A DNA stretch of 64,000 bases from contig NZ_LT977071.1 of the NCBI RefSeq assembly GCF_900250075.1, positions 2,003,901 through 2,067,900 on the forward strand, in the 5' to 3' direction. The notes under the pieces were generated by a model. It was not told the DNA's origin and did no database searches. It was given only the letters and a program-made list of their open reading frames with translations. Positions 4,346-44,246 of this stretch are shown here, piece by piece (position 1 is the stretch's first letter; each line of letters opens with the position of its first letter). Both the position numbers and the translations under genes were made by a program. This DNA is from Cupriavidus taiwanensis (GTDB lineage Bacteria > Pseudomonadota > Gammaproteobacteria > Burkholderiales > Burkholderiaceae).

Positions 4346-6610
4346 CTATTTGACGATCACGCGGTTGCCGATCGCCCTGAATACCGCGAGCCTGGAATCC
4401 CGAAAAAACATGACCGGATTACTCATCAGCTTCTTCGCTTTCCTTTGCCACGCCGGTTTCCGGGTCGCCGGCGCCAGCTTTGCATCAGCGCGGACTGGCT
4501 TGGGCGCCTGCGCCGGCGCTTGCTTCGGCGCCTCTGCTCGCACCGGCACAGGCTTCGCGCCCAGTTCCTTGTCCGCTTTGACTGCGGCAGGCGCCTTCAC
4601 CGCAGTCGTGGCCCGAGCGGAGGCAGCGCGATAGCGATCAAACAAGACCGAGTCGGATGAGACCTCTACCGCTTCCCGCAGACTTCGGTTCATTTCGGGA
4701 CGCCCAGGAAAACGAATCTTGTAAAAATCGATCGCGGTGGTAGCCGTCATGAACGAGCCGTCATGCCATTTCACCTTTCTGGTTTTGAATTTGCCAAATG
4801 AGTAAAAATCATTAATCAAATAGCCAAGGAACCGTAATGATTTCTCAAAATCCGGCCTGCAGCCATTCAATACAGCAACCACGTCGGATTCATCGCTGAC
4901 TTGATAAGTGAGGCCGGGGATGCCATAGAACGCCTGACCACAATGGAGCACCAGCTTGCCAAACGCGAGTCCGAGCACCCCGACACCGGAGTTCACTGCA
5001 ATCATCGCATCGCTCAAATCCAGCAGATCCTTAGTGTTGTATTGATCCACGTTGATGGCACCGGGAACGTCCACAACATCCGTCTCTAACGGGTGCTGCT
5101 TCACCAGCAATTCCCAATCCTGTCGCAAGGCAAAAGGCAGCCTCGCAAGCAAGCGAAGGAAATTCTCATAGCTCCCCATCGGACCCATGAAGTTTTCAAT
5201 CACGGTGTCAGTTGGACGTTGAAGGAAAGCTACCAATACCCTCTTGCCGCGCCCGATATTCAGCTTCTTGCGCAGAGATCCGGCGCCTAGCCTGGGCGAT
5301 TGAGCCTCGAGCGATTCGTCGTCGCTAATGGCACGTTGGATATACAGCAGGGTGGCGGCCCTTTTTTCATTGGAAAGCTCCTTGTCCCATCTTTCTGGCG
5401 CATAACTGGAACTGTCCGCATTGAACCCGCACGGGTCGAAGAATACTGAATCCGGCAACGCTCCGCGCTCAACCACCAGGAAAGGAAACCGGTTGGTTCG
5501 CACCAGGTCATAGAGAGCCCTCATCCGGGGATTGGCATACGGGTTGTGAAAGACCACGCGGTCAAACCCGGACTCCCTGAGGAACTCCATGAAGGTCTCG
5601 GCAGGCAGATGGTCCTCATCGACATGAACGATCTCGCCAAGAAATGGGGCAATCCAGCGATTGGTTACCCATGGATTGTTTCTCAGGACCAGCGATTTCC
5701 CGCTGCCATGCATGGGTAGCGGATCTGGCTCAAGTTCCTTGTCCCTGAAGTCCGCCAGCTTCTTCTCGAATAGTTGACGGTTCCTGGCTTTCGCGGCCAT
5801 GTAGTCGCTTTTATGCTCCACCGGATGCCAAGCATGAAACAGGACCATTCCCTTCTGAAAGGTCATGTCGCCAAACAGCCGATAAATGCTCTTCCAACCT
5901 TTGTATTCGACGATGGACTGGAAATTGCGATAGTCGAGAGCGAACTCCGAAGGCAATGGGAACTTCTTTCTTCGCCGAATGGCCCGGCACGTGTACTCGA
6001 GATCCTCATAGCCCCAGCCATTGAAATCCGGGTCGTTGCCGCCGGTAGCGAGAAAGTAATCGCGTCGCCAAACGGTAACGGACGTTCCGGTCGAAAATTT
6101 TTCGATAGCCGCCTGGTCGTTCTGCAACAGCAGTTGAATATATTTCTGCCGCCGCAACGCGGGAGCCATGTGGCGGAAATCTTGGGTTGCAGCCTCGGTC
6201 AGGTAGATCACGCCGAACATCAGGAAGTTGTCGGCCGATTCATCCAGCCCGTTGACAACAGCTTCCCCCAATACATCGCGATAGAAGCCGACATACGGCA
6301 TGAGATCCACATCCTGAAACATGATGTAGTCGGAGAGTCCGCACTGAGCCGCCGCGTTTCTCGCACGGCCTATCGAAAATTGGAGATGCTCTGTTTTCAA
6401 CCGATGGTAGCCATAGCCAAGCTTTCTGCATTCAGCTTCGAGCCGACCGGCAAGATCCAGCGGGGAACCGTCGTCGACAACCAGAATCTCGACCCCATCG
6501 GGCAAATCGGCATCCATCCTCGCGAACGTCAGCCGATCGAGCAGATCTGAGCGTTCGCTTCCCCAGCGGACCGGAATGGCAACGGTGAGTTTCTTTTCAC
6601 TGATATGCAT
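4346..6610 (-). CDS. Two-domain capsule glycosyltransferase (GT2-type plus Kdo-transferase-like domain)
   Basis: The 754-residue protein has a GT-A domain at about residues 8-260, with VVDDGSPLD, a DVDLMP metal-binding element and GWGYEDLEYTCRAIRR, as in chondroitin-polymerase-type GT2 enzymes. A second region (about 310-630) resembles the KpsC/KpsS fold, with VKQHPLE and NSGVGVLGLAFGK leading to QAFYGIPGLTYQ. A 60-residue Ala/Pro/Lys-rich linker follows, then a basic C-terminal segment (KKLMSNPVMFFRDSR) that may bind membrane or partners. Two transferase folds in one chain would suit a processive capsule polymerase making a disaccharide repeat. That is inference; donor sugars cannot be told from sequence. 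It lies 2 bp from kpsD and belongs to the capsule-specific, lower-GC segment. Confidence 0.8.
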   Translation of the reverse strand: MHISEKKLTVAIPVRWGSERSDLLDRLTFARMDADLPDGVEILVVDDGSPLDLAGRLEAECRKLGYGYHRLKTEHLQFSIGRARNAAAQCGLSDYIMFQDVDLMPYVGFYRDVLGEAVVNGLDESADNFLMFGVIYLTEAATQDFRHMAPALRRQKYIQLLLQNDQAAIEKFSTGTSVTVWRRDYFLATGGNDPDFNGWGYEDLEYTCRAIRRRKKFPLPSEFALDYRNFQSIVEYKGWKSIYRLFGDMTFQKGMVLFHAWHPVEHKSDYMAAKARNRQLFEKKLADFRDKELEPDPLPMHGSGKSLVLRNNPWVTNRWIAPFLGEIVHVDEDHLPAETFMEFLRESGFDRVVFHNPYANPRMRALYDLVRTNRFPFLVVERGALPDSVFFDPCGFNADSSSYAPERWDKELSNEKRAATLLYIQRAISDDESLEAQSPRLGAGSLRKKLNIGRGKRVLVAFLQRPTDTVIENFMGPMGSYENFLRLLARLPFALRQDWELLVKQHPLETDVVDVPGAINVDQYNTKDLLDLSDAMIAVNSGVGVLGLAFGKLVLHCGQAFYGIPGLTYQVSDESDVVAVLNGCRPDFEKSLRFLGYLINDFYSFGKFKTRKVKWHDGSFMTATTAIDFYKIRFPGRPEMNRSLREAVEVSSDSVLFDRYRAASARATTAVKAPAAVKADKELGAKPVPVRAEAPKQAPAQAPKPVRADAKLAPATRKPAWQRKAKKLMSNPVMFFRDSRLAVFRAIGNRVIVK

Positions 6611-39213: not shown

Positions 39214-39962
39214 GCCGATGGGTATTCTTGCGGGGACTGACGCGCGAATCGCGTCACTGGGGAACGCTGCCGGCGCGCTGGGAGGCTGCCGGGCTGGGAC
39301 GCCCGCTCTTGCCTGACCTGCCCGGCAATGGCGCGCTGTCGGCGCAGCCCGCGCCGTGGAGCGTGCGCGAGATGGTGACGGCGGTGCGGCGCCAGCTGAC
39401 CGCCGCCGGCGCGCCAGGACCGTACCGCGTGCTGGCCATGTCGCTGGGGGCGATGGCTGCGACCGAGTGGGCGAGCGCGTATCCGGAGGAAGTGAGCGGC
39501 CTGGTGCTGGTCAACACCAGCATGCGGCCTTTCTGCACGCCGGTGCAACGCCTGCGTCCGCGCAATTGGGGCAGGCTGCTGCGCGTGGCGCAGCGCTGGC
39601 GGGATCGCGCGTATTGCGAGCGGACCATCCACGCCATCACCTGCGCGCGCACCGACACGCAGGCCGCCGATGTTGCGCAGTGGCAGGCCATCGCGGCGGA
39701 TGCACCGGTCAGTCGGCAGGCCGCGCTGGCGCAATTGCTGGCCGCCGCGCGCTACTGCGCGCCGGCCGAGCCGCCGTGCTGTCCGGTACTGCTGCTGGCC
39801 TCGGCGGCAGACCGCCTGGTCAACCCGGCCTGTTCGGCGCGCATCGCGCAGGCCTGGGACGTGCCCTTGCTGACCCACCACTGGGCCGGCCACGACCTGC
39901 CGCACGACGACCCGCAATGGGTATGCGATGCGGTCGCACGCGCCGGATCACGCTTCGGCTAG
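39210..39962 (+). CDS. Alpha/beta hydrolase
   Basis: The 250-residue protein has the alpha/beta-hydrolase fold. The oxyanion loop is FLRGLTRESRHWG, and the nucleophile elbow reads VLAMSLGAMAA (Ser in A-M-S-L-G instead of the usual G-x-S-x-G). LLASAADRLVNP carries the acid and HHWAGHDLPHDDP the His. Esterase, lipase or thioesterase activity is likely. It starts at 39210 by a 4-bp overlap with the peptidase gene and ends 15 bp inside the convergent tetR gene. Confidence 0.85.
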   Translation: MSRWVFLRGLTRESRHWGTLPARWEAAGLGRPLLPDLPGNGALSAQPAPWSVREMVTAVRRQLTAAGAPGPYRVLAMSLGAMAATEWASAYPEEVSGLVLVNTSMRPFCTPVQRLRPRNWGRLLRVAQRWRDRAYCERTIHAITCARTDTQAADVAQWQAIAADAPVSRQAALAQLLAAARYCAPAEPPCCPVLLLASAADRLVNPACSARIAQAWDVPLLTHHWAGHDLPHDDPQWVCDAVARAGSRFG

Positions 39963-40535
39963 CGCCTCTTCCACTGGCATGGCGCTGACCAGCAGCGCCG
40001 CCGCGGCATCTGCGCGATCCCACGTACCGAACAGCCGCGCGCTGATCAGCCCGTTCTGCAGGGCGCCGAATACCACCTGCGCCAACTGTTGCGGCGGCAG
40101 CGAGAACGGCGCCGCGCCCCGGGCGGCGGCCTGTTCAAGCAGGCGCGCCAGCCATTGCTCGTTAAGGCGGGTAAAGTCCTGCATCGCGGCGCGCACGGTG
40201 TCAGGCATGGCCAGCACGTCGGCCGACAGCATCCCCACCACGCAGGCCTGGTCGGTGCAGGCGCCGTCGCGCAGCGGCTGCAGGTATTGCCGCGCCTGCT
40301 CGGCGCACGGCAGGCTGGTATCGATGGCCTGCAGCCTTGCCCGCTTGCGCGCGCTGTATTCGCGCACCGCTTCGAGCACCAGGTCGTCCTTGGACGGAAA
40401 GTAATAGTGGATGCTCGAGGTTTTGACGCCGACCAGCTCGGCCAGGTCGCGGTAGCTGAAACCGTTGAACCCCCGGCGGCGGATCAGCACCAGCGCGTGT
40501 TCGACCAGTTGCTCGCGTACGGTTGGGGTAGTCAT
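39948..40535 (-). CDS. TetR-family regulator, cassette copy 1
   Basis: The 195-residue regulator has an N-terminal HTH (RRRGFNGFSYRDLAELVGVK, then TSSIHYYFPSKDDLV) nearly identical to that of the second copy at 41758-42324. The C-terminal ligand domain diverges more and carries Cys residues in SLPCAEQ and ACTDQACVVGML. I start it at 40535 (MTTPTVREQL); the longer frame reads through the small gene upstream. It is the last gene of the first cassette, 32 bp after the 33-residue gene. No operator of its own is seen, so it is probably co-transcribed. It overlaps the end of the convergent hydrolase gene. Confidence 0.92.
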   Translation of the reverse strand: MTTPTVREQLVEHALVLIRRRGFNGFSYRDLAELVGVKTSSIHYYFPSKDDLVLEAVREYSARKRARLQAIDTSLPCAEQARQYLQPLRDGACTDQACVVGMLSADVLAMPDTVRAAMQDFTRLNEQWLARLLEQAAARGAAPFSLPPQQLAQVVFGALQNGLISARLFGTWDRADAAAALLVSAMPVEEALAEA

Positions 40536-40567
40536 GGCATCGACTCCTCGGCTTGCCGCCGGGCCAT

Positions 40568-40669
40568 TCAGGCCGGCAGCGTTTGTGCGATCAGCGTGAT
40601 GAGGGACCCGCTTGCAAGGCAAAGTCCAACCCATCCGCCCAGGATCAGCGCAGTGTCACGCCAACGCAT
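40568..40669 (-). CDS. 33-residue single-helix membrane peptide, cassette copy 1
   Basis: This short gene has AGGAG (40676-40680) 6 bp ahead of its ATG at 40669. It encodes 33 residues: a charged start (MRWRD) and one hydrophobic helix (ALILGGWVGLCLASGS onward), ending LPA. It aligns without gaps to the equally sized gene at 42422-42523, with 19 of 33 residues the same, including R4, D5, GGW at 11-13, C17 and SGS at 20-22. Conservation, length and ribosome sites together argue for a real gene. Function unknown. It lies between the repeat protein and tetR. Confidence 0.8.
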   Translation of the reverse strand: MRWRDTALILGGWVGLCLASGSLITLIAQTLPA

Positions 40670-40743
40670 GATCTACTCCTGAAGCGGGGCCGCACCATGG
40701 CGGCCCGGTATTTGTCGATGGCCGGCGCCAGGCCGGCCGGCTC

Positions 40744-41364
40744 TCAGGCGATGGCGCCGTCGGTGTAGGGATCAGCCTTGCCCACGCGTGCACCGTCGGT
40801 GTACGGGTCGAAGCTGCGGGCCGGCTCGGCCGACACGTTGCTGCGATCCAGGCCGGCAACCGTGCGGGCGCCGTCGGTGTACGGGTCAGCCTTGCCCACG
40901 CGTGCACCGTCCGTGTACGGGTCGAAACTGCGGGCCGGCGCCGCCGACACGCCGCTGCGATCCAGGCCGGCTACCGTGCGGGCGCCGTCGGTGTACGGGT
41001 CGGGCTTGCCCACGCGGGCACCGTCGGTGAACGGGTCGGCCTTGCCGCTGCGGTAGTTGTAGCCATAGCTGTCGGCCGGCACCGCAGCCGCGACCGTGCG
41101 CGCGCCATCGGTGTACGGGTCGGTCTTGCCGACGCGTGCGCCTTCGGTGAACGGATCGAACTTGCCGCTGCGCGCGCCTTCCGTGAACGGGTCGAAGTTG
41201 CCGGTGCGGGCCCCGTCGGTAAAGGCATCGGCGTTGCCGACGCGATAGCTGTAACCGTACTTGTCGCCGGCGTTGGCGTTCACGCTGGCGGCCTGCGCCA
41301 CACCGCCCGCGAGCGCGGCGACAAGGGTGGCGGCGGTGATCAGGGTCTTGGTGGTCTTGGTCAT
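40744..41364 (-). CDS. Secreted DPYTDGAR-repeat protein, cassette copy 1
   Basis: The 206-residue protein has a Sec signal peptide (residues 1-25, ending GGVAQA). The mature part is built almost only from a short repeat, D-P-(Y/F)-T-(D/E)-G-A-R, present ten times counting imperfect copies. Two YGY-x-YR segments (near residues 36 and 99) open two modules, and two spacers of the form TVAGLDRSGVSAAPARS separate repeats. The repeats contain no Cys and no predicted membrane segment, so the protein is likely periplasmic or extracellular. AGGAG precedes the ATG. I do not recognise the family. It is first in its cassette, behind a predicted TetR-controlled promoter. Confidence 0.88.
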   Translation of the reverse strand: MTKTTKTLITAATLVAALAGGVAQAASVNANAGDKYGYSYRVGNADAFTDGARTGNFDPFTEGARSGKFDPFTEGARVGKTDPYTDGARTVAAAVPADSYGYNYRSGKADPFTDGARVGKPDPYTDGARTVAGLDRSGVSAAPARSFDPYTDGARVGKADPYTDGARTVAGLDRSNVSAEPARSFDPYTDGARVGKADPYTDGAIA

Positions 41365-41442
41365 GATGGGCTCCTGGGTGCGATGATTCGGATCGCGTCA
41401 AATTCGGTATCAGTGGCTGTTGCAGTCCTTCTTCGATTCCGC

Positions 41443-41460
41443 ATCTATCAGTAGATAGAT
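41443..41460. promoter_or_regulatory. Leader operator O2, cassette copy 1
   Basis: ATCTATC (41443-41449) and GATAGAT (41454-41460) form a perfect inverted repeat 79 bp before the repeat-protein ATG and about 100 bp inside the predicted transcript. It shares its core with the promoter operator and matches a palindrome at the same place in copy 2. Confidence 0.65.
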
Positions 41461-41470
41461 AACCGGTCTC

Positions 41471-41492
41471 AAAAAAATGACCGCTTCCGGTC
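41471..41492 (-). terminator. Short hairpin with T-run in the leader of cassette copy 1
   Basis: On the minus strand, GACCG and CGGTC pair around a GAAG loop and are followed by A then seven T. It lies between the predicted promoter and the repeat-protein gene. It may be an attenuator, or end transcripts arriving from the second cassette. Copy 2 has an equivalent. Confidence 0.5.
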
Positions 41493-41560
41493 GTGCAATG
41501 GGACCCTGCGTTCCGCCTGGTCTTGCTTGTCGGTGGCGGTGCAGCGCTTCCATGGCCTTG

Positions 41561-41589
41561 ATACTATCTACTACTAGGTAGAGAGTCAA
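41561..41589 (-). promoter_or_regulatory. Promoter with TetR-type operator in the spacer, cassette copy 1
   Basis: Reading leftward, a -35 TTGACT (41589-41584) and -10 TAGTAT (41566-41561) are 17 bp apart. The operator CTATCTAC/GTAGAGAG (41564-41571 and 41578-41585, one mismatch) covers the spacer and both edges. Binding there would exclude RNA polymerase. Copy 2 has the same layout. Confidence 0.75.
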
Positions 41590-41757
41590 GGAAAAACATT
41601 TCTATGACTGCGATAGCCACCATCCATGACGCCCTAAGCTCTTGATTATGAAGCGGTATTCCGAGTATCCGCCGGCGCGCGAGGGCAAACAAAAAAACCG
41701 CCATGCGGCTTGCACCCCATGACGGTTTCAGTCGCGCCACTGATATCGCGCGCAAAA

Positions 41758-42324
41758 TCAACCCGATACGGCAGCCATCAGGGTGTCGGCGGCAGCCTCG
41801 ACGCGGTCCGACGTGCCGAACAGGCGCGCCGCGATCAGCCCGCTCTGCAGTGAGCCGAATACCACCTGTGCCAGCCGCGCCGGCGGCACCGGGAACGGCG
41901 TGCTGCGATGGGGCTGGGCCCGCTCCAGCAGCCCGGCCAGCCATTGTTCGTTCAGCAGGAAGAAGCCCTGCAGCATCTTGTGCACGGATTCCGGCAGGCA
42001 CAGCGTCTCGGTCGACAGCATGCCGCACAGGCAGATCTGGTCCGAGCCGCAGCTGGCGCGAAATGGCGCCAGGTAGATGGCCGCCTGCTCGGTGACCGGC
42101 AGCGTCGTATCGATGGCGTTGATGCGCTCGGCCAGGCGGGCGCTGTATTCCTTCACCGCTTCCTGGACCAGGTCTTCCTTGGTCGGAAAGTAATAGTGGA
42201 TGCTGGAGGTCTTCACGCCCACCAGTTCCGCCAGGTCGCGGTAGCTGAAGCCATTGAAGCCGCGCCGCCGGATCAGGATCAGGGTGTGCTCGAGCAATTG
42301 CTCGCGTACGGATTGGGTTTTCAT
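41758..42324 (-). CDS. TetR-family regulator, cassette copy 2
   Basis: The 188-residue regulator has the same HTH as copy 1 (RRRGFNGFSYRDLAELVGVK identical), which predicts the same DNA target. The C-terminal domain has ASCGSDQICLCGML with three closely spaced Cys, a possible thiol sensor, unlike copy 1, which keeps two in that block. A predicted -10 (42336-42331) lies so close to the ATG at 42324 that the transcript would start at or next to the start codon, and no ribosome site is present. The message from this promoter is probably leaderless. It can also be read from the cassette promoter. Confidence 0.92.
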   Translation of the reverse strand: MKTQSVREQLLEHTLILIRRRGFNGFSYRDLAELVGVKTSSIHYYFPTKEDLVQEAVKEYSARLAERINAIDTTLPVTEQAAIYLAPFRASCGSDQICLCGMLSTETLCLPESVHKMLQGFFLLNEQWLAGLLERAQPHRSTPFPVPPARLAQVVFGSLQSGLIAARLFGTSDRVEAAADTLMAAVSG

Positions 42325-42330
42325 GCAAGC

Positions 42331-42359
42331 AGTTTATCTACGCGAAGATAGACGCTCAA
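42331..42359 (-). promoter_or_regulatory. tetR promoter with operator in the spacer, cassette copy 2
   Basis: A -35 TTGAGC (42359-42354) and -10 TAAACT (42336-42331) are 17 bp apart. The spacer holds TATCT (42335-42339) and AGATA (42346-42350), the same operator type as at the repeat-protein promoters. This indicates autoregulation of the second tetR. Confidence 0.65.
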
Positions 42360-42421
42360 GTTGAAATGCCCCGGGGCTGGGGTAATTCCCTAGCCTCGGG
42401 GCACAGTGCACTACATGGGCG

Positions 42422-42523
42422 TTAGCCAGGCAGGACCTGCGCGGCGAAGGTAATCATCGAGCCACTCGTCACGCAAAGTACCAGCCATCCGCCAAGCAAC
42501 AGGATGCTGTCACGCAAACTCAT
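42422..42523 (-). CDS. 33-residue single-helix membrane peptide, cassette copy 2
   Basis: The paralogue of 40568-40669 has exactly the same length. It has a charged start (MSLRD), a hydrophobic helix (ILLLGGWLVLCVTSGS onward) and the end LPG. GGAG lies 7 bp before the ATG at 42523. It keeps R4, D5, GGW, C17, SGS and the Gln at position 29. It sits between the second repeat protein and second tetR, in the same order as copy 1. Function unknown; a membrane role beside a secreted repeat protein is inferred. Confidence 0.8.
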   Translation of the reverse strand: MSLRDSILLLGGWLVLCVTSGSMITFAAQVLPG

Positions 42524-42595
42524 GATGGACTCCATCGGACGGCGGCCACGGGCCGCCATCGTAAGTTGTGGGCCGCCGGCCGATGCCGGCGGCAA

Positions 42596-42982
42596 TCAGG
42601 CCAGGGCGCCGTCAGTGTAGGGATCAGCCTTGCCGACGCGCGCACCGTCCGTGTACGGGTCGAAGCTGCGGGCCGGCTCGGCCGAGACGCCGATGCGGTC
42701 CAGGCCAGCCACGGTGCGGAAGCCGTCCGTGTACGGGTCGGTCTTGCCGACGCGGGCGCCTTCGGTGAACGGATCGAACTTGCCGCTGCGCGCGCCTTCC
42801 GTGAACGGGTCGAACTTGCCGGTGCGGGCACCGTCGGTAAAGGCATCGGCGTTGCCGACGCGGTAGCTGTAGCCGTACTTGTCGCCGGCGTTGGCGTTCA
42901 CGCTGGCGGCCTGCGCCACACCGCCGACGAGCGCGGCGGCAAGGGTGGCGGCGGTGATCAGGGTCTTGGCGGTCTTGGTCAT
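42596..42982 (-). CDS. Secreted DPYTDGAR-repeat protein, cassette copy 2
   Basis: This is a 128-residue shorter sibling of the copy 1 protein. The first 92 residues differ at only five positions, including the same signal peptide and the opening YGYSYRVGNADAFTDGAR. It has six repeats instead of ten, one TVAGLDRIGVSAEPARS spacer and a single YGYSYR module. The difference is a block loss or gain of whole repeats. I start at 42982 (MTKTAKT) where the ribosome site is, not at the upstream Met at 43132, which would read through the leader. Confidence 0.88.
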   Translation of the reverse strand: MTKTAKTLITAATLAAALVGGVAQAASVNANAGDKYGYSYRVGNADAFTDGARTGKFDPFTEGARSGKFDPFTEGARVGKTDPYTDGFRTVAGLDRIGVSAEPARSFDPYTDGARVGKADPYTDGALA

Positions 42983-43065
42983 GATGGGCTCCTGGGGTGC
43001 GATGGTTCGGGATCGCGTCAAATTCGGTGTTGGTGGCGATTCAATGGGTCGCTTTCCAGGCTCGC

Positions 43066-43081
43066 ATCTACTAGTAGATAG
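43066..43081. promoter_or_regulatory. Leader operator O2, cassette copy 2
   Basis: ATCTACTAGTAGAT (43066-43079) is a perfect 14-bp palindrome, followed by AG. It lies 84 bp before the repeat-protein ATG, matching the O2 site of copy 1 in place and core sequence. Confidence 0.65.
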
Positions 43082-43094
43082 ACTTCCGGGCCTG

Positions 43095-43115
43095 AAAAAA
43101 TGACCGCTCGGGTCA
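43095..43115 (-). terminator. Short hairpin with T-run in the leader of cassette copy 2
   Basis: On the minus strand, TGACC and GGTCA pair around CGAGC and are followed by six T. It occupies the same place between promoter and O2 as the hairpin in copy 1. The stem is short, so strength is uncertain. Confidence 0.45.
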
Positions 43116-43182
43116 TGCAATGGAATCGCCACTTCCCGCGCCTTCTTGCTGTCTTTGGCGGTGCAGCGGTGCCATGGACTGA

Positions 43183-43211
43183 ATGCTATCTACTGATAGG
43201 TAGATAGTCAA
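43183..43211 (-). promoter_or_regulatory. Promoter with TetR-type operator in the spacer, cassette copy 2
   Basis: A -35 TTGACT (43211-43206) and -10 TAGCAT (43188-43183) are 17 bp apart. CTATCTAC (43186-43193) and GTAGATAG (43200-43207) form a perfect 8-bp inverted repeat with a 6-bp centre covering the spacer. The surrounding 100 bp are recognisably the same as in copy 1. Confidence 0.78.
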
Positions 43212-43319
43212 GGAAAAAGATTTCTATCGAAGGAATAGCCGCCCCGCACCCGTCACGGAAAAGCGCTTCTGAATGAACAATTCTTCACTTGCGGAGTCGG
43301 GCCTGCTAGCCTGAAGAAG

Positions 43320-44246
43320 ATGAACCCTGACCCCCGCCCCCCGTCTCAAACCGCGCGGCACCGCTGGCTGGCCGCGGCAGCAGGCATGGCCGTGGCGGCC
43401 GGGGTCGCGCGGCATCTGCTGTTTCGTGCGCTGGAGCGCAAAGCCTTTGTCACGCCGACGGATGAGACAAGCCGCGCGGAGCCACCCGACAATTCAGCCC
43501 CTATGGTGCGGCACGCCACCTTCGCCAGCGGCGAACGCATCCTCCACGCGGCCTTCATGCCGGTGCCAGACCCCGAGGCACCGGCCCTGATGGTGTGCCA
43601 TGGCGACAACGAATGCCTGCCGGACTGGGCGCCGGTGCAGGCCATGCTGGCCGATGCGGGCATCGCTTCCTATGTGTTCGACTACAGCGGCTATGGGCGC
43701 AGCACCGGGCGGCCAAGCGTGCGCCGGCTGCGGCAGGATGCACTGGTTGCCTATGGACAGTTCATCGCCGCCACGCCGCTATCAAAAAGGCGCGTGGTGC
43801 TGGGACATTCGCTGGGATCGGGCATCCTGCTCGATGTGGCGCGGCGTTTCGATCCGCAGCCGGATGGCTATGTGATAGCCGCTGGCTTCAGCTCGGCGCG
43901 GCTGGCCGCGGTGCAGACCGGGCGCATTCCCGCATGGGCTGCGTGGCTGCTGCCGGATCCGTGGAACAACGCGGCGCGTGCGAGCAAGCTGGAACGGCCG
44001 CTGCTGGTGGTGCACAGCCGTGACGACGTGGTCATCGTGCCGCCCCATGCGGAACGCGTGGCAAGCGCTGCCAGGCATCTGCATGCGCTGGTCATGCACG
44101 AGGCCATGCCGCACGATGCGGCCATATTGCCGCAGCATATCGACACCTTCTGGCCGCCGATCCTGCGCTTCATGCAGGCACAGGCAACCGGCTCCGAAGC
44201 GCCATTGCAGCAAGCGCGTGATGAGGGGCACATCATGGCCGATTAA
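43320..44246 (+). CDS. Membrane-anchored alpha/beta hydrolase
   Basis: The 308-residue protein has an N-terminal anchor or uncleaved signal (about residues 18-36, LAAAAGMAVAAGVARHLLF) and an alpha/beta-hydrolase domain. HGDNECLPDW is the oxyanion region, VVLGHSLGSGILL holds the nucleophile Ser, VVHSRDDVVIVP the Asp and MPHDAAILP the His. It resembles the BEM46/YfhR-like peptidase-esterase group. It is divergent from the second cassette and lies 109 bp from its promoter, but no shared control is evident. Confidence 0.85.
   Translation: MNPDPRPPSQTARHRWLAAAAGMAVAAGVARHLLFRALERKAFVTPTDETSRAEPPDNSAPMVRHATFASGERILHAAFMPVPDPEAPALMVCHGDNECLPDWAPVQAMLADAGIASYVFDYSGYGRSTGRPSVRRLRQDALVAYGQFIAATPLSKRRVVLGHSLGSGILLDVARRFDPQPDGYVIAAGFSSARLAAVQTGRIPAWAAWLLPDPWNNAARASKLERPLLVVHSRDDVVIVPPHAERVASAARHLHALVMHEAMPHDAAILPQHIDTFWPPILRFMQAQATGSEAPLQQARDEGHIMAD

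Follow-up and report, generated by a model that had tools for sequence, protein, structure and literature searches.

A 64,000-nucleotide (nt) window of the Cupriavidus taiwanensis genome (6.77 Mb in total, with the window on a contig of 2.78 Mb) carries on its minus strand (39948-43211) a tandem pair of three-gene units, each encoding a secreted repeat protein (Q), a 33-residue membrane peptide and a TetR-family regulator, in that order. Each unit opens with a sigma-70-like promoter (P1) enclosing a palindrome (O1), followed by a terminator-like hairpin, a second palindrome (O2) and then the three genes (Table 1). Judged by its sequence evolution, the Q-peptide-TetR set is real, genus-wide and functional, and Q belongs to the CopQ family, hence to an already-known kind of protein. 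On balance, we favor the view that these units are autorepressed envelope-stress operons whose inducers, direct or indirect, are soft metals or thiol-reactive agents. The role of CopQ proteins is poorly known despite the presence of 21 copQ homologs in Cupriavidus metallidurans CH34, many of them induced by metals (PMC7563307; here and below, the published statements are those given in passages of the cited papers). A link between CopQ and TetR was not found in the literature searched, including passages of PMC2864759, PMC7380067 and PMC10304115 (CopQ passages only), and relative to this literature the association of CopQ with a TetR, with the peptide and with a two-operator leader containing a terminator just before the second operator appears to be new. 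The analysis supplies a candidate dedicated regulator, its operator and a candidate CH34 regulon for metal-induced Q genes, identifies as part of the operon a conserved membrane peptide that had been overlooked, and indicates a compact two-gate control region.

According to the first-pass annotation of this DNA, absence of the triplet from every other genome would refute its proposal; the opposite is observed. Loci selected by a match to the peptide or the TetR were examined in 59 Cupriavidus genomes, and 58 of these contain at least one complete Q-peptide-TetR triplet. The peptide is present in 59 of 60 genus genomes searched and in all 54 good genomes, and a window-type TetR (E-value ≤1e-40) is likewise encoded by 59 of the 60, in exactly two copies in 54; the single genome without peptide and TetR is 78% complete. 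When pairing was assessed with the 150 listed peptide rows, weaker rows being left out, 105 of 122 TetRs lie 32-184 bp behind a peptide gene of the same strand, with at least one such pair in 59/59 genomes, and two TetRs lie within 6 kb of each other in 25 genomes. Q was found directly upstream (≤500 bp) of 89 of the 101 peptides examined. A family-level search matched the peptide in 45 of 299 genomes, comprising 40 of the genus and five weak matches (E-values 0.0026-0.0096) that we take as chance. Named relatives that share 97-99% identity with the TetR of unit A come from Cupriavidus. Confinement to Cupriavidus and Ralstonia counts among the criteria for the CopQ family; of 321 repeat-protein homologs, 120 were listed, and those with an organism name are from Cupriavidus or a Burkholderiaceae bacterium.

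By its codon-level pattern, the peptide is under purifying selection and evolves as a coding sequence: across 59 distinct 33-codon coding sequences, the ratio of nonsynonymous to synonymous differences (pN/pS) is 0.41, pN is lower than pS in 529 of 537 pairs, and 55 of the 59 are preceded by a Shine-Dalgarno (SD)-like site. All 52 distinct peptides (consensus MxxRDSALILGGWVxLCxxSGxxxTxVAQxLPx) contain one hydrophobic 19-residue segment with a mean hydropathy of at least 1.6. The coding evolution and this segment support the earlier proposal of a 33-residue membrane gene in both units. KdpF, AcrZ and MgtS are small membrane proteins of stress operons, and the peptide, likened to them by description, shares a length of about 30 residues, a single membrane helix and an operon with a larger protein. 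Known small membrane toxins are also similar in size and hydrophobicity, and the peptide could accordingly be imagined as a toxin or pore former silenced by TetR and unrelated in function to Q, a scenario that would suit the 45 of 150 listed peptides without such a TetR adjacent. We regard it as very unlikely, as the peptide is kept in every good genus genome and, in the 89 cases above, sits directly behind Q with its own SD-like site. A strict triplet is nevertheless contradicted by these 45 peptides, several of which belong to Q-peptide pairs that retain the palindromes, by the 17 of 122 TetRs without a listed peptide and by the 12 of 101 peptides for which no Q was found within 500 bp upstream. 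Together with a CH34 locus that contains TetR and Q but no peptide (the mmtQ-type locus, see below), these exceptions make the earlier designation of the peptide as a membrane partner of the repeat protein no more than tentative. Lone peptide relatives without Q or TetR occur in the window's genome (L053, about 4962-5141) and on CH34 chromosome 1 (L195, about 4444-4548), the latter in the vicinity of a gene encoding thioredoxin-like domains, which also matches DsbD_TM weakly and below the cut-off.

The CopQ family is defined by a signal sequence and by 3-4 copies of an RDXXTDG motif, separated by spacers of set length (PMC2864759). In both units, the N terminus of Q is hydrophobic, signal peptide-like and ends in AxA, and the motif of the type D-x-[FY]-T-[DE]-G-A occurs 6 times in unit A and 10 times in unit B, exceeding the defined number; several homologs are named CopQ in their source records. 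Metal-induced genes of CH34 include czcJ, mmrQ, copQ, mmmQ, mmtQ, mmsQ and mmsQ1 (PMC2864759), and PrsQ1 and PrsQ2 were required for the silver resistance of a mutant, according to earlier work cited in PMC7380067. The first-pass annotation knew of no described system of this make-up, a statement not supported in view of the assignment of Q to the CopQ family and of the published metal induction of mmtQ, mmsQ and mmsQ1. The window proteins share with CopQ, CzcJ, MmrQ, MmmQ, MmtQ, MmsQ and PrsQ the signal peptide, the spaced RDXXTDG-type repeats and metal-induced relatives, and they are directly related to MmsQ and, on the basis of synteny and interpolation, to MmtQ; those members are described, in the passages concerned, as single genes without a TetR, a 33-residue peptide or a two-operator leader. 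The mature window proteins contain no Cys, His or Met, and the AlphaFold2 model of unit A Q is unstructured apart from a signal helix at residues 3-26 (mean predicted local distance difference test, pLDDT, 52), so a role as a classical soft-metal chelator is unlikely. Among the 120 listed homologs, Cys is missing from 115, Met from 103 and His from only 68. Other assignments of the repeat proteins were rejected, namely PT-VENN (15.1 and 16.3 bits against a cut-off of 20.3, matching the N-terminal stretch 6-33) and APH(3') and further weak NCBIfam matches (≤14 bits, cut-offs 27.7 to 293). Elsewhere in the window's genome, a CopQ-type paralog (L013:3605-5338) directly precedes an OsmC-family gene, and the TetR palindrome was not found there.

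The published induction data can be connected with this gene set through strain CH34, for which the stretch examined corresponds to NC_007974.2 (100% match) and gene tags were derived from a neighboring gene and interpolation. A Q-peptide-TetR set at 1570795 is followed by an Exo_endo_phos-family gene that reads as exonuclease III. This neighbor fits xthA3, which is Rmet_4910 (PMC2864759), so the Q gene fits mmsQ (Rmet_4908), and the TetR behind it would be Rmet_4909. The Q at 2348829, the sole near-identical copy (99%) of the mmsQ-type Q, fits mmsQ1 (Rmet_5594); it is accompanied by the peptide, and another, distant TetR lies upstream. The CH34 locus that is syntenic with the window on both flanks has Q and TetR but no peptide, and its TetR falls in a clade sister to the window tetA clade (support 87/79). 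Its interpolated tag is 4203, compared with Rmet_4187 for mmtQ, and the same interpolation line places another Q at 4457, compared with 4461 for mmmQ; we infer that the syntenic Q is probably mmtQ. According to PMC2864759, Cd, Hg and Pb strongly induce mmtQ, Zn does so moderately, and Cu and Ni do not ("data not shown"); mmsQ is among the genes highly induced by metals, and no resistance locus is linked to mmtQ, mmsQ or mmsQ1.

As expected for a TetR-family regulator, in silico searches revealed palindromic operators at the promoters of its candidate targets. In CH34, the strict palindrome TATCTA-N4-8-TAGATA has 7 distinct sites (from 10 matches, some overlapping; 1 in the reversed control), all of which lie in front of mmtQ, mmsQ, mmsQ1 or the mmtQ-locus TetR, that is, at three Q loci. 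In the window's genome, a relaxed form of the palindrome has 5 sites, 3 of them inside the cassettes (control 1). This genome has 14 other Q places, and the surroundings of the 12 examined (L012-L023) contain no such palindrome. Because the palindrome is confined to these Q loci in CH34 and absent at the other Q places examined in the window's genome, TetR and palindrome would define, in silico, a small dedicated regulon. This TetR is probably the missing regulator of metal-induced genes previously reported from CH34. The operators assigned to each unit in the first-pass annotation are present as palindromes that recur across the genus, except that the palindrome in front of tetR belongs to unit A only; in unit B, tetR begins 32 bp past the peptide gene and no palindrome was seen in between. 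The two sites away from the cassettes (G000:C2:440168 and G000:C2:2126001) may be chance, the reversed control also giving 1.

Both window regulators match the Pfam TetR N-terminal helix-turn-helix domain (44.6 and 42.1 bits, cut-off 24), and TetR_C_13 (gathering cut-off 27) scores 29.7 bits in unit B but 20.6 bits, below the cut-off, in unit A. The TetR structure model (mean pLDDT 91.6) has 3on4 (template modeling score, TM, 0.87) and 2g7s as its closest folds; other matches include 3bru (TM 0.86) and the reduced form of NemR (4yze, TM 0.80, rank 9). All 118 distinct TetR sequences, 83 of them from Cupriavidus-type loci and 35 others, have Cys98; some of these rows are fragments of one gene. 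NemR-type redox repressors carry a reactive cysteine whose modification releases DNA, and the window TetRs resemble the NemR/AcuR branch in fold, in a cysteine opening the effector domain and in being small repressors. They differ from this branch in their predicted targets, the CopQ genes, and in their AcuR score: membership in AcuR was rejected (38.2 and 37.5 bits against the NCBIfam equivalog NF051457 cut-off of 247).

A scan of 39900-43400 returned only the two P1 sites (43211-43183 and 41589-41561) as promoter-like (shuffles expect 0.6), in agreement with the one promoter per unit assigned earlier. The hairpin between O1 and O2 in each unit was absent from that earlier description. A run of at least five T is found in the 75 nt preceding O2 in 86 of 86 distinct cassettes, which were chosen for having O2. 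In a right-anchored search, the basis of the leader-stem evidence, 87 of 93 leaders (a set chosen for having the T run) contain a stem of at least four pairs, at least three of them G-C, ending at the T run, compared with 9% of shuffles. Stem sequences vary among lineages while pairing persists, the first pair from the loop being GC in 55, CG in 20 and other in 12. In each of the 82 leaders (of 93) for which the pattern located O2, 10-13 nt separate it from the T run, and this fixed distance suggests that TetR bound at O2 abuts RNA polymerase on the T run. Rfam contained no curated riboregulator matching 39900-43300, as the three matches (E-values 1.1 to 4.4) are far under their gathering scores.

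A start codon, close to the predicted transcription start, also follows O1 throughout the 93 leaders, as ATG at 11 nt in 91, ATG at 10 nt in 1 and GTG in 1. The frame behind it spans 5 to about 60 codons, and a conserved leader peptide was therefore rejected. Outside the genus, in L148, L152, L167 and L168 (4 of 39 loci listed), the same promoter-palindrome-ATGGAAAC block is present and the ATG 11 nt on is the start of tetR, which in these loci is probably leaderless and autoregulated. The leader start codon of Cupriavidus therefore looks like a probable remnant of a leaderless tetR start, tetR itself now being separated from it by Q and the peptide. In Caballeronia loci with a scored palindrome, the palindrome ends 33-44 nt before the tetR start.

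These features admit two accounts of the leader. It may not be an attenuator at all: the ATG could be such a relic, the hairpin could end the former tetR transcript, and Q could be transcribed from a second promoter at O2. The four loci in which the block starts tetR and the TAACAT-like -10 elements that follow some O2 sites are in keeping with this account. It is weakened by the retention of the start codon in 93/93 leaders with no retained frame, by the constant hairpin-O2 distance and by the many O2 sites, including those of the window, that are without a recognizable -10; we consider it a genuine possibility, though with somewhat less than even confidence. Alternatively, the leader may operate with two gates, TetR blocking the promoter at O1 and pinning the polymerase on the U-run at O2, with release yielding a genus-wide envelope shield composed of disordered CopQ and membrane peptide. 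In full, with TetR as a sensor of soft metals or thiol stress and the resting leader ending as a 70-107 nt RNA that begins with a leaderless AUG, this account is speculative and rather doubtful.

For the broader reading of an autorepressed envelope-stress operon, the following course can be proposed. In the resting cell, a TetR dimer would occupy O1 within P1, O2 past the short terminated leader and, in unit A, the palindrome before tetR. Soft-metal or thiol-reactive stress would cause TetR to leave the DNA, possibly through Cys98, and the sensing could be direct or indirect. Release would lead to production of the secreted, predicted unstructured CopQ-family protein without Cys, His or Met, of the peptide, presumably held in the membrane by its one helix, and of extra TetR that would reset the switch. 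With O2 free, the polymerase may read through the leader terminator, TetR having acted as a roadblock there. We infer that Q and the peptide most likely protect the envelope. The earlier suggestion that a TetR-sensed signal releases production of these proteins is supported in part, and in silico, by the palindromes at the operon promoters and, in unit A, at tetR, by the signal peptide and repeats of Q and by the coding character of the peptide, leaving aside the notion of a membrane partner.

Several observations weigh against this reading. The induction data come from CH34 only, are given as "data not shown" in PMC2864759, and include an mmtQ-type locus that has no peptide. One genus genome (G266) encodes peptide and TetR with no Q match beside them. 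For the leader, RNAalifold found no consensus pairs on the full MAFFT alignment, in which the hairpin falls in gapped columns, and a clear -10 at O2 is missing in part of the cassettes while some O2 sites are followed by one. The equivalent of Cys98 is also present in the solved homologs 3on4 and 2g7s, so this residue may be structural. Outside the genus, the neighbors of related TetR genes point to a non-metal signal: in Caballeronia and Paraburkholderia, a secreted alpha/beta hydrolase gene with the same palindromes lies beside the related TetR in 13 of 51 non-Cupriavidus loci, and two Paraburkholderia loci, again with these palindromes, have an OsmC-family gene, which we take to be Ohr-type; a DUF4148 gene is a further such neighbor. 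Because of these neighbors, oxidative or electrophile damage is favored as a source of the signal alongside metal.

Taken further, TetR might sense an organic hydroperoxide, lipid or electrophile arising from metal damage, in which case metals would be indirect inducers and the encoded proteins would shield or repair the envelope. The two Paraburkholderia loci, in which the secreted alpha/beta hydrolase accompanies the OsmC-family gene, the hydrolase loci as a whole and the OsmC-family neighbor of the L013 paralog are compatible with this possibility. Copper is a strong source of oxidants. Its reported failure to induce mmtQ, and the metal-selective profile of that gene (Cd, Hg and Pb, but not Cu or Ni; PMC2864759), speak against such a damage-derived signal, and we regard this alternative as somewhat unlikely. 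In seven Collimonas loci (L139 and L142-L147), the related TetR lies near a small secreted protein with the palindrome in between, the protein of L139, the one scanned, being DUF4148.

Table 1. Positions in the window of the genes and control elements of the two units, with the evidence for each.
Feature	Position	Strand	Evidence
Unit A promoter P1 (TTGACT-17-TAGCAT)	43181..43211	-	Promoter scan; P1/O1 consensus over 81 upstream regions
Unit A operator O1, within P1	43186..43207	-	Palindrome, recurring across the genus
Unit A leader start	43157..43175	-	ATG at 43175-43173, 11 nt past O1, near the predicted +1
Unit A terminator-like hairpin with T6	43095..43116	-	Hairpin scan; T runs in relatives
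Unit A operator O2, located after the hairpin	43065..43082	-	Palindrome; spacing to the T run in relatives
Unit A CopQ-family secreted repeat protein, 128 residues	42596..42982	-	Open reading frame; between-unit comparison; homologs; motif count
Unit A 33-residue membrane peptide	42422..42523	-	Between-unit comparison; hydropathy; pN/pS
Unit A palindrome preceding tetR (TATCTTCGCGTAGATA)	42335..42350	-	Palindrome search
Unit A TetR, 188 residues, with Cys98	41758..42324	-	TetR_N match; Cys conservation; structure model
Unit B promoter P1 with imperfect O1	41560..41589	-	Promoter scan
Unit B leader start, ATG at 41553-41551	41535..41553	-	Leader comparison
Unit B terminator-like hairpin with T7	41471..41492	-	Hairpin scan
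Unit B operator O2	41442..41461	-	Palindrome search
Unit B CopQ-family secreted repeat protein, 206 residues	40744..41364	-	Open reading frame; between-unit comparison; motif count
Unit B 33-residue membrane peptide	40568..40669	-	Between-unit comparison; hydropathy; pN/pS
Unit B TetR, 195 residues	39948..40535	-	TetR_N and TetR_C_13 matches

The open reading frame coordinates bear out the earlier description of two adjacent units on the same strand and in the same order, and all three genes are conserved between the copies, as had also been claimed, with protein identities of 64% for TetR, 58% for the peptide and 80% (best block) for the repeat protein. The term tandem duplicated cassette is appropriate for the arrangement but not for the age of the copies: except in a 240-nt stretch at the start of the repeat genes, they are diverged paralogs. 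A recent tandem duplication was rejected because TetR and peptide are too far apart and because tetA and tetB fall in separate supported clades of the TetR tree (21 and 19 rows), whose order relative to the mmsQ-type TetR clade is unsettled. At the nucleotide level, the 240-nt stretch (window 42743-42982 and 41125-41364) is 96% identical, compared with 65% for the peptide genes and 67% for the later part of tetR, and it resembles the outcome of gene conversion between the Q copies. In one further genome (L079:5163-8450), a Q-peptide-TetR unit is preceded by another, similar Q gene that has both palindromes.

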